From: Afipia sp. GAS231
GTDB lineage: Bacteria > Pseudomonadota > Alphaproteobacteria > Rhizobiales > Xanthobacteraceae
Assembly (NCBI RefSeq): GCF_900103365.1
Contig: NZ_LT629703.1
Location: forward strand, 7,054,501 to 7,118,500
Length of the DNA stretch: 64,000 nt
Reading direction: 5' to 3'
In this document: in pieces, positions 2,135 through 7,244 of the stretch
How positions within the stretch are numbered: position 1 is the first letter of the stretch
Layout: each line of letters begins with the position of its first letter
Position numbers and translations under genes: made by a program
The notes under the pieces: generated by a model
Told to the model about the DNA's origin: nothing
What the model saw: the letters and a program-made list of their open reading frames with translations, nothing else
Database searches by the model: none

Positions 2135-3097
2135 ATGATGGCACAAAATGGTCTCGTTGTCGTCGGCATCGATGTAGCAAAGGACAAGGTCGATGCGTGC
2201 ATTCGCGAGTTGGCGCTGCGGCAGACGTATCCGAGCACTGCCCAGGGTCATCGCAAGCTGGTTGCCTGGCTTCGCAAGCACAAGGTGAACAGGGCGGTGA
2301 TGGAGGCCAGCGGCGGCTATGAGCGCGATTGGGGGAAGGTGCTCCGCCTGGCCGGCATCGCCGTACGGATCGTCGACCCCAAGCGAGTCCGCAGCTTTGC
2401 GCAGTCGGCCGGACGCCTGGCCAAGAACGATACGATTGATGCAGAGATGATCGCTTGGTTCGCAGAGACGTTCAGCGAGGCGCCGGGCCAAGTGCACGAT
2501 GCCGCGCGCGAAGAGCTGCAGGCGCTGGTGAAAGCTCGTCTCAATCTGGTCGATCTCAAGATACGACTGGAAGCTCAAAACGAGCATGCTGCACCAGGAC
2601 AGGCTCGGAAAGCGCGGACCCGTATCTTGAAGAGCTTGCTCGAGGAAATTGCCAAGCTCGAAGTCGCGATCTCGGCCCAGGTCAGGGCCACACCTCATCT
2701 TGCCGAACGCGCCGAGATCGTCGAGAGCGTGCCGGGCTTTGCCGAAACGAGCTCAGCGAACCTCATTGCTGGAATGCCGGAGCTTGGGCAAGTGAGCGAC
2801 GAGATCGCCGCGGCGTTGTTAGGCGTTGCCCCTTATGACGATGATAGCGGAAAGCGCCGCGGCGAACGCCACATCAAGGGCGGCCGCCGTTGGGTCCGAA
2901 ACGCCCTCTACATGCCGTGCCTCGGCGCGGCCACACAGAACAATCCTGTCTTCAAGGCCTACTATCAACGGCTACTTGCCAAGGGGAAGGAGCCGAAGGT
3001 TGCGCTCGTCGCCTGCATGCGAAAGCTGATCATCATCCTCAACACAATGATCGCACGCCGGCAGAAATGGGATCCCAGCCGTTACGCACTGAATTGA
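2135..3097 (+). CDS. IS110-family transposase (bridge-RNA-type recombinase), copy 1
   Basis: A 320-residue protein with the IS110 layout. The N-terminal RuvC-like domain has D13 (GIDVAKDK), E57 (MEASGGYE), D99 and D102 (AKNDTIDAEMI). The C-terminal Tnp domain has the serine motif PYDDDSGK with S238. All DEDD residues and the serine are present, so the enzyme looks active. In this family the protein dimerises on the bridge RNA and recombines donor and target DNA through a serine-linked intermediate. GGAAGGGAG precedes the ATG; a second ATG follows at once (2138). Only about 35 percent of residues seem shared with the other two transposases by eye. Confidence 0.92.
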   Translation: MMAQNGLVVVGIDVAKDKVDACIRELALRQTYPSTAQGHRKLVAWLRKHKVNRAVMEASGGYERDWGKVLRLAGIAVRIVDPKRVRSFAQSAGRLAKNDTIDAEMIAWFAETFSEAPGQVHDAAREELQALVKARLNLVDLKIRLEAQNEHAAPGQARKARTRILKSLLEEIAKLEVAISAQVRATPHLAERAEIVESVPGFAETSSANLIAGMPELGQVSDEIAAALLGVAPYDDDSGKRRGERHIKGGRRWVRNALYMPCLGAATQNNPVFKAYYQRLLAKGKEPKVALVACMRKLIIILNTMIARRQKWDPSRYALN

Positions 3098-4702: not shown

Positions 4703-4743
4703 CTCCGTCCGGTTAGGGTGACAGCTCGTAGCAACCATTAAAG

Positions 4744-5691
4744 CTAAGCATCTTTTTCGATCCACGGGGTACCGCGTTGAACGACGGTGTTGGCGTAGAT
4801 CAGGAGCTTGCGGGCGCAGGCGATGAGTGCGGCGTTATGATGCTTTCCGGATGCTATTAGGCGTGCGTAGAGCATGGTGAGGGCCTTGTTCCACCGGAAC
4901 ACTGCTGGGAGGGCTGCCGCGAACAGGGAGCGCCGCAAGCGAGCTCGGCCGCCGGCGATGTGGCGTTGCCCTTTTTGCTGCCCGCTGTCGTTGTCGAAGG
5001 GAGCAAGTCCGGCGAGGGCTGCGGCTTCCTCCCGGCTCACGCGACCAAGCTCGGGCATACGGATAATGATTGCCAGTGCAGTCCGCTCACCGATTCCAGG
5101 AATACTGAGCACCAGATCAAAGCGAGCGGCGAGATCGGGGTGAGAGCGTAATTGCTTGGCAATGTAACGAACCTGGGCGAGCCGTCGCGCGTTCCATCGA
5201 GCAATTTCGCCAAGAACCATTCGCCGCAACCGAGGCTCGTGGATATGTTCCAGCCGGGTCTTGAAGCGCCTGAGATCCTCATCGATTTGATCGAGGAAAG
5301 TCAGATTTTCAGCCAATTCAGCCAGACGTGAATCTGGCGTAGTCTTCGGCGGATCGAGCGTTGCTGTGCAAGCCGCGATCAAGACCGCGTCGAGCGCATC
5401 GTTCTTGGCGCGGCACAGATGCACCCGGCCAAACGCCTTGACCTGGATCGGCTGCAGCACCAGCACGGTAAAGCCTGCCTCGCGTAAATGCTCCACCACA
5501 CCACGTTCATACCCGCCGGTCGCCTCGATGCCGACGCGCGTCACGCCGGCCTTGGCTAGGTAACCGGCAAGGGCTCGCCAGCCAGGCAAGACGTTTGCGA
5601 CCTGCCAACGCTCGGCACGATCGTGAACTGCGATGTCCAGTTTGGACTTGGACGTATCGATTCCAGCCGTCGTTATGATAATCTGTGTCAT
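4744..5691 (-). CDS. IS110-family transposase, copy 2
   Basis: A 315-residue recombinase. DEDD residues are D12 (AGIDTSKSK), E56 (GIEATGGYE), D98 and D101 (AKNDALDAVLI); the C-terminal serine is S236 in PFDNDSGQQ. All catalytic residues are intact. The start at 5691 (MTQIIITTAG) aligns exactly with that of copy 3; the frame is open for 60 further codons upstream, but those codons lie across the RNA region and are not protein. The enzyme should act with the RNA encoded just upstream on the same strand. Confidence 0.93.
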   Translation of the reverse strand: MTQIIITTAGIDTSKSKLDIAVHDRAERWQVANVLPGWRALAGYLAKAGVTRVGIEATGGYERGVVEHLREAGFTVLVLQPIQVKAFGRVHLCRAKNDALDAVLIAACTATLDPPKTTPDSRLAELAENLTFLDQIDEDLRRFKTRLEHIHEPRLRRMVLGEIARWNARRLAQVRYIAKQLRSHPDLAARFDLVLSIPGIGERTALAIIIRMPELGRVSREEAAALAGLAPFDNDSGQQKGQRHIAGGRARLRRSLFAAALPAVFRWNKALTMLYARLIASGKHHNAALIACARKLLIYANTVVQRGTPWIEKDA

Positions 5692-5706
5692 CTTCGTCGA
5701 CCCTGC

Positions 5707-5855
5707 CTTGTGAAGCGAACCAAGTTGTTCCGGCAACCATCCGGGTCCGATGAAGGTGCTGACGACGATCTCGCTACGGAGCAGCCAAAAGTGGCTCTGG
5801 ATGGGTACGATCCGATCGCCAGCGGCCTGCCGCGGATTGCCGTCCGTGGCAGGCC
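5707..5855 (-). ncRNA. Predicted bridge RNA of IS110 copy 2
   Basis: On the reverse strand: a 13-base-pair stem with one mismatch (5855-5843 with 5836-5824); ACCCATCC (5806-5799), equal to the REP target flank; CGTAG (5778-5774), the complement of target-right CTACG; ATGGTTGC (5740-5733), equal to the right end at 4738-4731; ACAAG (5711-5707), the complement of left-end CTTGT. The left target guide is followed by A where copy 3 has T, so the second core base is not matched. Ends are approximate. Confidence 0.78.
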
Positions 5856-5901
5856 ATTCCTTTCGGAACACACCGACAATAATCGATTTTGCTATTACAA
5901 G

Positions 5902-5975
5902 GATGGGTTGAGCCTCGCGAAACCCATCATTCTTGCATCGACCGAAATGATGGGTTTCGCTGCGCTCAACCCATC
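5902..5975. repeat. Inverted REP pair whose two arms each carry an IS110 insertion
   Basis: The left REP hairpin GATGGGTT (5902-5909)/AACCCATC (5921-5928) and the right hairpin GATGGGTT (5949-5956)/AACCCATC (5968-5975) are mirror copies, separated by 20 bases. Copy 2 begins directly outside the left hairpin and copy 3 directly outside the right one, both at a CT that follows AACCCATC. The outer ends of both elements continue with CTACGA, which would complete each REP arm. The sequence between the transposase starts (5692-6184) therefore forms an imperfect inverted repeat of about 490 bases. Confidence 0.85.
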
Positions 5976-6021
5976 CTTGTAATAGCGCAATCGGTTATCG
6001 TCGGCCTGTTCCGAAAGGAAT

Positions 6022-6169
6022 GGCCTGCCGTGGACGGCCATCCACGGCAGGCCGCTGGCGATCGGATCGAACCCATCCTGAGCAGTTTGTGGCTGCCCCG
6101 TAGCGTGATCGCGCCAGCACCTTCATCGGACCCGGATGGTTGCCGGAACAACTTGGTTCGCTTCACAAG
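6022..6169 (+). ncRNA. Predicted bridge RNA of IS110 copy 3
   Basis: All four guides are readable. A perfect 13-base-pair stem (6022-6034 with 6041-6053) opens the RNA. AACCCATCCT (6070-6079) is identical over 10 bases to the left target at 5968-5977 including the CT core. CGTAG (6099-6103) is the complement of right target CTACG (7146-7150). ATGGTTGC (6136-6143) is identical to the right end at 7139-7146. ACAAG (6165-6169) is the complement of left-end CTTGT (5976-5980). Order and spacing follow the IS621 bridge RNA. The transcript ends cannot be read from sequence. Confidence 0.85.
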
Positions 6170-6184
6170 GCGGGGTCGACGAAG

Positions 6185-7132
6185 ATGACACAGACTATCA
6201 TAACGACGGCTGGAATCGATACATCCAAGGCCAAACTGGACGTTGCTGTTCATGATCGGTCCGAGCGCTGGCAGGTTGCCAATGCTTTACCTGGCTGGCG
6301 CGCCTTGGCGGCCAACCTGTCCAAAGCCGGCGTGACGCGCGTCGGGATCGAGGCGACGGGCGGCTATGAACGCGGTGTGGTGGAGTATTTGCGCAAGGCG
6401 GGCTTCACCGTGCTGGTGCTGCAGCCGACCCAGGTCAAGGCTTTTGGCCGGGTCCATCTGCGTCGCGCCAAGAACGATGCGCTCGATGCGTTCTTGATCG
6501 CGGCTTGCACAGCGACACTCGATCAGCCGAAGACTGCGCCAGATCCTCGACTGGCACAACTGGCTGGATATCTGACCTTTCTCGAACAGATCGAGGAAGA
6601 CATCGCGCGTCACAAGACCCGGCTCGAACATATCGACGAACCTGGCCTGCGGCGCATTGTTAACAGCGACATCGTCCGGCTGAAGGCACGACGGGCCGCG
6701 CAGATACGCGACATTGCCAAGCGACTTCGCGCCAGTGACGATCTTGCCATGCGACTCAATCTGGTGCTGAGCATTCCCGGCATCGGAGAACGCACGGCGC
6801 TGGCGCTTCTGATCCGCATGCCCGAGCTTGGGCAAGTCAGCCGCGAGGAAGCTGCAGCCTTGGCCGGCCTGGCTCCCTTCGACGACGACAGCGGAAAACA
6901 TAAAGGCCTACGTCGCATAGCTGGCGGGCGAAGTCGCCTACGCCGCTCCCTGTTCGCGGCTGCCCTCCCAGCGGCCTTCCGCTGGAACAAGGCACTCGTC
7001 GCGCTCTATGCCCGCCTGACGGCCGCTGGAAAGGCCCACACCGCAGCGCTCATCGCTTGCGCCCGAAAGCTCCTGATCTACGCCAACACCGTGGTCCAGC
7101 GCGGTACGCCGTGGACCGAAAAAGCCGCCTAG
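6185..7132 (+). CDS. IS110-family transposase, copy 3
   Basis: A 315-residue recombinase with the complete DEDD set D12, E56, D98 and D101 and the serine S236 in PFDDDSGKHK. An RuvC-like N-terminal domain, a coiled linker around residues 110-190 and the C-terminal Tnp domain (VLSIPGIGERTALAL onwards) are recognisable. The start MTQTIITTAG at 6185 lies 15 bases after the predicted right donor guide. The full guide set and intact active site make this the copy most likely to be functional. Confidence 0.94.
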   Translation: MTQTIITTAGIDTSKAKLDVAVHDRSERWQVANALPGWRALAANLSKAGVTRVGIEATGGYERGVVEYLRKAGFTVLVLQPTQVKAFGRVHLRRAKNDALDAFLIAACTATLDQPKTAPDPRLAQLAGYLTFLEQIEEDIARHKTRLEHIDEPGLRRIVNSDIVRLKARRAAQIRDIAKRLRASDDLAMRLNLVLSIPGIGERTALALLIRMPELGQVSREEAAALAGLAPFDDDSGKHKGLRRIAGGRSRLRRSLFAAALPAAFRWNKALVALYARLTAAGKAHTAALIACARKLLIYANTVVQRGTPWTEKAA

Positions 7133-7156
7133 CTCTTAATGGTTGCTACGAAATGC

Positions 7157-7244
7157 CGTCGTCATTGCGAGGGAAGCGAAGCAATCCATGCTTCAGCAGC
7201 GAAGAACTGGATTGCTTCGTCGCTTCGCTCCTCGCAATGACGGC
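7157..7244. repeat. Intergenic palindrome with GTCATTGCGAG arms
   Basis: The arms start CGTCATTGCGAG (7160) and end CTCGCAATGACG (7231-7242), with inner GCAATCCA/TGGATTGC arms. The near-perfect palindrome lies between IS110 copy 3 and the SDR gene stop. It may act as a terminator-like hairpin for the SDR gene, but no T-run is present. It is a different sequence family from the palindromes at 1461 and 8007. Confidence 0.7.

Follow-up and report, generated by a model that had tools for sequence, protein, structure and literature searches.

Among the described systems closest to the element reported here is IS621, whose bridge RNA has a 5′ stem-loop, then a target loop and a donor loop, with the transposase gene after them (PMC11208160, PMC11208158, PDB 8wt6). 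IS621 has a CT core, pairs of target guides (left, LTG, and right, RTG) and donor guides (left, LDG, and right, RDG), a promoter that is reconstituted at the RE-LE junction (PMC11208160), a recombinase whose DEDD and Ser residues have been named (PMC11208158), and a habit of inserting into REPs, all of which have likenesses in our element; its target, ATCAGGCCTAC (PMC11208160), ends CT-AC, as the targets described below do. That IS110 elements have a bridge RNA, and that it covaries with their targets across the family, was shown in 2024 (PMC11208160, PMC11187229). The seekRNA of IS110-type elements is likewise an RNA of the non-coding region that selects the target and lies upstream of the transposase, as here, whereas in the IS1111 type the RNA usually lies downstream and the target words are reversed in order, unlike here (PMC11187229).

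Certain insertion sequences use REPs as targets (PMC2817692), and IS110 elements that insert into them were on record by 2003-2006 at the latest (Choi et al., by its title, cited in PMC2817692; PMC1525189). Every copy of each of ISPpu9, ISPpu10, ISPa11, ISPsy8, ISRm19 and ISRm22 was found in REPs and, like the copies we describe, at one exact REP position (PMC1525189; for the REP-targeting of ISPpu9 see also PMC8450116). These six come from Pseudomonas and Sinorhizobium, and their description predates the discovery of bridge RNAs; ISPsy8, with its two transposase ORFs, belongs to another family (PMC1525189). REPs typically end in GTAG, a motif that is cleaved by an E. coli RAYT, and GTAG REPs with head-to-head dimers are known from Bradyrhizobium (PMC3733652), with Br-REP1 and Br-REP2 named in B. 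japonicum (PMC5082802).

The mechanism of such elements is already established, and, donor-guide covariation apart, the defining features of IS110 were found here wherever they could be tested. As to the REP-targeting elements named above, ISPpu9 and ISPa11 are of the IS1111 type. The present element differs from IS621 in that its recombinase is distant (PDB match E 1e-22), its guides read another REP stem and its host is Bradyrhizobium-type. Its natural copies amount to an unusually clean experiment in retargeting, run by a recombinase remote from that of IS621. Searches of open-licence PMC papers brought to our notice no description of the element, nor of guides that switch among REP variants in Bradyrhizobium. 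From comparative sequence analysis we consider it very probable that the element is an IS110-type RNA-guided insertion sequence, in which the LTG would pick the REP variant and the recombinase would insert the circle at the REP end.

Anatomy of the element

The element occupies positions 5976..7147 (+ strand) of the window, the 64,000-nucleotide stretch of Afipia sp. GAS231 DNA that was analysed, and measures 1172 bp with both CT cores or 1170 bp with one. Its boundaries were set from eight copies in the genome together with copy-to-copy breakpoints in relatives, and the CT core is present at both junctions in 8/8 home-genome copies. The left end is 209 nt long and holds the RNA upstream of the transposase, and the right end consists of 13 nt after the stop codon plus the core; terminal inverted repeats are absent when the ends CTTGTAAT and ATGGTTG are compared by eye. 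The insertion lies in a REP-like palindromic dimer (5898..5977, strand unassigned) with two inverted arms ending CCCATCCT, of which one holds copy 2 on the − strand and the other holds the present element on the + strand. The initial annotation called the latter copy 3, a numbering that fits the window, where an ORF of a 38%-identity clade is found at 2135-3097 and the 82% sister copy at about 4730-5901 (−).

The mechanically called ORF starts at TTG 6140, within the RNA, and we place the gene start at ATG 6185, giving a recombinase of 315 aa (6185..7132, +). This protein matches PF01548 (E 3.6e-22) and PF02371 (E 2e-17) and scores 171.4 bits against a cut-off of 140 with the NCBIfam model NF033542, ‘IS110 family RNA-guided transposase’. 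Residues 9-310 align with the solved IS621 and ISCro4 recombinases in the PDB, the best PDB match being ISCro4 (9t56), which has the same catalytic residues, a likeness of protein sequence. Both the DEDD RuvC-like domain and the Ser transposase domain are present, and D12, E56, D98, D101 and S236, which had been reported as intact, are so and align with the DEDD and Ser residues of the IS621 and ISCro4 chains.

Each of four guide words is present exactly once in the 209-nt non-coding region. The LTG, AACCCATCCT (6070..6079, +), equals the left target with its core, AACCCATC-CT (5968..5977, +), and the RTG, CGTAG (6099..6103, +), is the complement of CTACG (7146..7150, +), the core and right target, whose CTAC is the complement of the REP GTAG tag. 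On the donor side, the LDG, ATGGTTGC (6136..6143, +), equals the right end at 7139-7146, within the left donor ATGGTTG-CT (7139..7147, +), and the RDG, ACAAG (6165..6169, +), is the complement of the right donor CTTGT (5976..5980, +) at the left end. All four positions and partners had been proposed in the initial annotation and are exact. The LDG ends at the C of the core: position 6144 is a C, whereas the element end has T. Upstream of the guides there is, as also claimed, a perfect 13-bp stem, 6022-6034 pairing with 6041-6053 without mismatch, which forms the 5′ stem-loop (6022..6053, +). It is followed by the target-binding loop (6054..6118, +), with an outer stem of 6054-6063 with 6107-6111 and 6114-6118 and an inner hairpin at about 6081-6096 (+), and by the donor-binding loop (6129..6177, +), with an outer stem of 6129-6133 with 6173-6177 and an inner hairpin of 6146-6149 with 6156-6159. 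The succession of stem, target loop, donor loop and transposase had been likened to the IS621 bridge RNA, and the two orders are the same.

Chance occurrence of the guides

How often would such a pattern arise by chance? In 20,000 dinucleotide shuffles of the non-coding region minus its first five bases, all four guides in order were found in none (0/20,000). Singly, the LTG appeared in 5 of these shuffles, the LDG in 88, the RTG in 1381 and the RDG in 2086, and as pairs within 60 nt, LTG then RTG appeared in 1 and LDG then RDG in 4. The 5-nt right guides are frequent in shuffles and so carry little alone, and it is the two left guides and the arrangement that carry weight. The fold of the single sequence is mildly better than that of shuffles (z −1.68; 14/200 shuffles fold equally well) and by itself would be unconvincing.

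That ordinary fold, together with the extension of the region right up to the transposase start codon, could be taken to mean that the upstream region is merely a 5′ leader regulating translation of the transposase and that the matches are accidental. Such a reading is already contradicted by our data, namely by the ordered pattern that no shuffle reproduced, by flanks that follow the guides in relatives and by conserved helices, and we give it practically no credence.

Structure of the predicted bridge RNA and the circle junction

We compared 26 distinct sequences, that of copy 5976-7147 included, over six proposed helices. The helices were paired in 96.7% of cells, against 24-51% in slid controls, and two-sided changes were seen in 10 pairs, eight of them in the 5′ stem (8/13 stem pairs). 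This count of two-sided pairs was matched in 1/500 shuffles and the covariation score in 0/500; further pair types were no more numerous than in shuffles (17 observed, mean 18.5, 497/500 as high). The stems of the target loop and donor loop are mostly invariant: the target-loop outer stem and the donor-loop inner stem each have a single two-sided pair. In the inner target hairpin one pair is broken in 11/26 sequences, so that the loop helices are less supported than the 5′ stem. The RNA architecture as a whole is supported by compensatory changes.

A covariance model built from stem through donor loop (R1) spans 159 positions, compared with the 177-nt RNA measured for IS621 (PMC11208160, PMC11208158). 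Of 8675 first-look candidates in the home genome 150 were scored, and among these R1 detected one full-length RNA at each of the eight copies and no orphan bridge RNA; its 16 matches were these eight and eight antisense ones at the same places, which arise because the stem is self-complementary. Three further R1 matches within the window were at chance level. No Rfam family was found in the whole window at the gathering threshold, nor in six relatives (three of them from a sister clade of 52-55% identity), and a search of 5900-7200 with E up to 1 gave nothing beyond weak matches of two miRNA models to the palindrome, which we dismissed as chance.

In an excised circle, the joined ends would complete a promoter-like TTGCTT-17-TATCGT. 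The −35-like TTGCTT is formed by 7143-7145 joined to 5976-5978, at a spacing of 17 from the −10-like box TATCGT (5996..6001, +), and the motif is complete only once the ends join; in the integrated element the target sequence takes the place of the −35 half. Joined in sequence, the ends have TTGCTT-N17-TANNNT in 28/28 distinct junctions, with TATAAT at −10 in three junctions from two genomes, and the mean match to TATAAT is 4.5 of 6 bases at this spacing but no more than 2.4 at the spacings next to it. Because TTGCTT served to locate the junction and is made of end bases that are conserved in any case, and because the junctions are mutually related, the informative part is the constant spacing and TA...T. 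The promoter-like motif at the predicted circle junction is conserved and, by analogy with IS621, would transcribe the bridge RNA from the left end.

The element's own boxes are weak, its −10 TATCGT having 4/6 consensus bases and its −35 TTGCTT 3/6, compared with TATAAT in two related genomes, as might be expected if the bridge-RNA anatomy is real and copy 5976-7147 has since decayed and cannot now move. On the other hand, four copies that are 99-100% identical lie at distinct sites in the one genome and the ORF is intact, which suggests recent movement. We regard decay as a minority prospect, albeit one to be taken seriously, and favour a copy that would still be active.

On our reading, the 5′ stem-loop of the bridge RNA would be followed by a target loop reading AACCCATC-CT and CT-ACG and by a donor loop reading ATGGTTG-CT and CT-TGT. 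The DEDD/Ser recombinase would bind this RNA and, as in the strand exchange of IS621, would use the CT core to insert the circle where a GTAG-tagged REP palindrome ends, with the LTG deciding the REP variant and the right guide reading the invariant tag.

Guides and flanks across the genus

The recombinase was searched for in 195 genomes of the genus (E up to 1e-50; for most, at most 11 candidates scored per genome), and matches were found in at least 38 of the 195 genomes, at no fewer than 143 places. We analysed 108 of these, eight home copies and 100 others, leaving out 35 that were further copies in sampled genomes or fragments; 27 of the 108 were set aside before counting, 26 because they belong to a clade of about 36-40% identity with different ends and one (L101) because it has no left end. 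In L101 (G067:C10:317306-319350) the left end and left core are deleted into the REP arm, and this copy is probably immobile.

In 74 of the 81 copies that were counted, the left flank equals the copy's own 7-nt guide. There are three main guide classes, ACCCATC, ACCCACC and GCCCACC, and the flanks follow them. As for the exceptions, L003 and three of the five G047 copies have an ACCCATC guide in ACCCACC (U-G wobble), L117 has guide ACCCATC and flank GGTCATC, L122 has guide GCCACCC and flank GCCCACC, and in L166 the flank is displaced by one base; U over G is the commonest departure of guide from flank (4/7). When guides were permuted over 24 genome-by-guide lineages, the observed matched fraction of 0.88 compared with a mean of 0.45 and was reached in 0/100,000 permutations.

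Does the guide select a site, or does each genome merely offer what its copies happen to match? All three repeat variants occur in each of 11 genomes in which they were counted, so that each has internal controls in the form of near-identical decoy repeats, and how often these are used can be measured. The guide-matched variant holds 56 of the 60 classifiable insertions in these genomes, where the abundance of sites would predict 28.8 (P about 7e-22); here classifiable means that guide and flank both fall within the three classes (the mismatching L117, with its flank in no class, is outside), empty sites are exact matches ending CTACG, and each copy is assumed to be one insertion event. Genome G055 has 102 empty ACCCACC sites and 7 empty GCCCACC sites, and its four analysed copies (of six found), with GCCCACC guides, are all in GCCCACC. 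Genome G087 has 117 empty GCCCACC sites and 8 empty ACCCATC sites, and all four of its copies that carry ACCCATC guides occupy ACCCATC sites. The initial annotation had set as its test whether the flanks of related copies follow changes in the guides, and for the LTG the flank counts and site-choice counts both came out in its favour; its broader reading of the element as RNA-guided is supported by these flanks together with the compensatory changes in the RNA helices and the conserved junction motif.

These data also bear on the proposal that the REP hairpin or palindrome is recognised directly by the recombinase protein, the guide-like words being REP relics picked up by the element. It could draw on the fact that palindromic REP ends are the targets of 7/8 home copies, and a paper cited by PMC2817692 credits the transposase, in its title, with the REP-targeting of IS1397 and ISKpn1. 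Yet the guide words match only the recognised bases, with neighbouring bases unlike REP, and the donor guides match the element's ends and not REPs. Moreover, in genome G176 copies with two guide types (one with ACCCATC, four with ACCCACC) each lie in their own repeat variant. We judge that recognition by the protein is quite improbable and retain selection by the LTG, for which the natural genomes provide an independent test of whether bridge-RNA base-pairing, and not the protein, sets the integration site.

On the recombinase tree, the two variable guide positions require six changes each, and well-supported branches imply a minimum of five gains or losses of the GCCCACC label. Independent guide differences on well-supported branches number only four, with the flank differing the same way in two to four, according to position and pairing, and the opposite way in none; a sign test on these is not significant. 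Such independent pairs are too few, and we therefore place the weight on the site-choice counts.

The right guide presents a different picture. With a pattern allowing only C or T before GTAGC used to locate the RTG, and one containing GTTGCTAC used for the right end, the RTG reads CGTAG in 72/81 copies and TGTAG in 9/81, ending GTAG in 81/81, and CTAC is at the right end in 81/81. The same test of flanks against guide changes, when put to the RTG, meets a partner that is nearly invariant in the 81 copies, and hence no covariation is visible. The partner ends of the donor guides are nearly invariant across copies too, and the sole lineage with a changed right end, that of G087, disagrees with its own guides. 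In these copies (L151-L154) the right end has gone from AATGGTTG to GATAGTTG, with ATTGTTG as LDG and CAAG in the RDG region; the alteration falls at the same place in guide and end, but the two are not compatible.

Outside the genus, eight of 14 loci were read. A copy on a Luteimonas MAG contig (L051) has GCCCACC as both guide and flank, and the flank resembles the Bradyrhizobium repeat, so its assignment to Luteimonas may be a binning error. Two copies from a Hyphomicrobium MAG (L054, L055) have guide ACCCGCC and flank ATCCGCC, which agree at 6/7 positions, the new G being common to both. L052 and L053 appear to coincide with L101 and L106, and L056, L060 and L062 gave no guide-flank pair.

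Site use in the home genome

The eight home-genome copies comprise four of subfamily A, 99-100% identical to copy 5976-7147, and four of subfamily B (82%). In 8/8 the left flank is (A/C)ACCCA(T/C)C followed by CT and the right flank is ACG, and a recognisable REP-like palindrome is found at 7/8, the other (L008) being at an arm end with no evident palindrome adjoining. The seven non-core guide positions read ACCCATC in both subfamilies. In the subfamily B copy at 4730-5901 (−) the LTG reads TACCCATCCA, leaving the second core base unmatched; 4/4 subfamily B copies nevertheless sit in AACCCATC-CT.

Occupancy follows the guide. Of the sites that match it perfectly, AACCCATC-CTACG, five are occupied and one is empty (intact form AACCCATCCTACG). 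The class CACCCATC has two occupied and 12 empty sites (empty form CACCCATCCTACG), and the commonest one-mismatch class, AACCCACC, has one occupied and 69 empty (empty form AACCCACCCTACG), that is, 1/70 used. The perfect class differs in occupancy from the two other classes with a Fisher P of 7e-6.

At two places, A and B copies lie head to head in both arms of one REP dimer (copies 2 and 3 of the window, and G000:2600492-2602914). We considered whether the two pairs could be one duplicated block and rejected this because their REP dimers and outer flanks differ; the pairs look like separate insertions.

REP targets and possible retargeting

The site MACCCAYCCTAC occurs 107 times in the home genome, against once for the reversed control, and among the 100 of 107 sites listed many are in inverted pairs about 65-115 bp apart with their arms unoccupied. 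The target is a palindromic, many-copy repeat with GTAG at one end and head-to-head dimers, as in GTAG REPs, and it differs from the Br-REP1 consensus given in PMC5082802.

With the right guide apparently held to the GTAG tag and the left guide changing, we incline to the idea that one bridge-RNA lineage within the genus has on several occasions switched from one REP family to another through changes of one or two bases in the LTG, with the RTG locked on the RAYT-cut GTAG tag. IS110 elements and RAYTs would then read one tag, and changes in the guide would follow the spread of REP variants. If this is true, a perfect-match class can be nearly exhausted, as with five of the six sites in the home genome. 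The link between an invariant right guide and GTAG also suggests a reason for the recurrence of IS110 elements in the REPs of unrelated bacteria. The natural guide variants, which differ by one or two bases, are ready-made for measuring mismatch tolerance, and the element would be expected to be programmable in the laboratory.

Related IS110 clades

A further IS110 element, of the 38% clade, lies on the + strand of the window, with an RNA at 1977-2131 and an ORF at 2135-3097; R1 matches it weakly (E 0.0075). Home-genome copies of this clade have a structured right end of about 185 nt, and by eye their targets are different and their guides match the flanks partly.

The sister clade of 52-55% identity (L119:1669-1877, L127:1656-1843 and 13 further relatives) carries extended non-coding sequence to either side of the gene. 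Its right end, mostly 225-275 nt, comes in addition to the upstream bridge RNA and is absent from element 5976-7147. We considered that its hairpin might be common to the 38% clade or to element 5976-7147, but searches with a model of it (R2) gave no support: among 22 sources R2 matched only L119 and L151 of its own clade, and in the home genome it matched nothing among the 150 of 13471 candidates scored. Within the sister clade the hairpin, GACGYCGCGC...GCCGTCAAGG / CCTTGACGGC..., is paired in 98.9% of cells, and 6/29 pairs are changed on both sides, which 0/500 shuffles equalled. In a circle it would sit just upstream of the junction promoter, where it is possibly a terminator or a second RNA.
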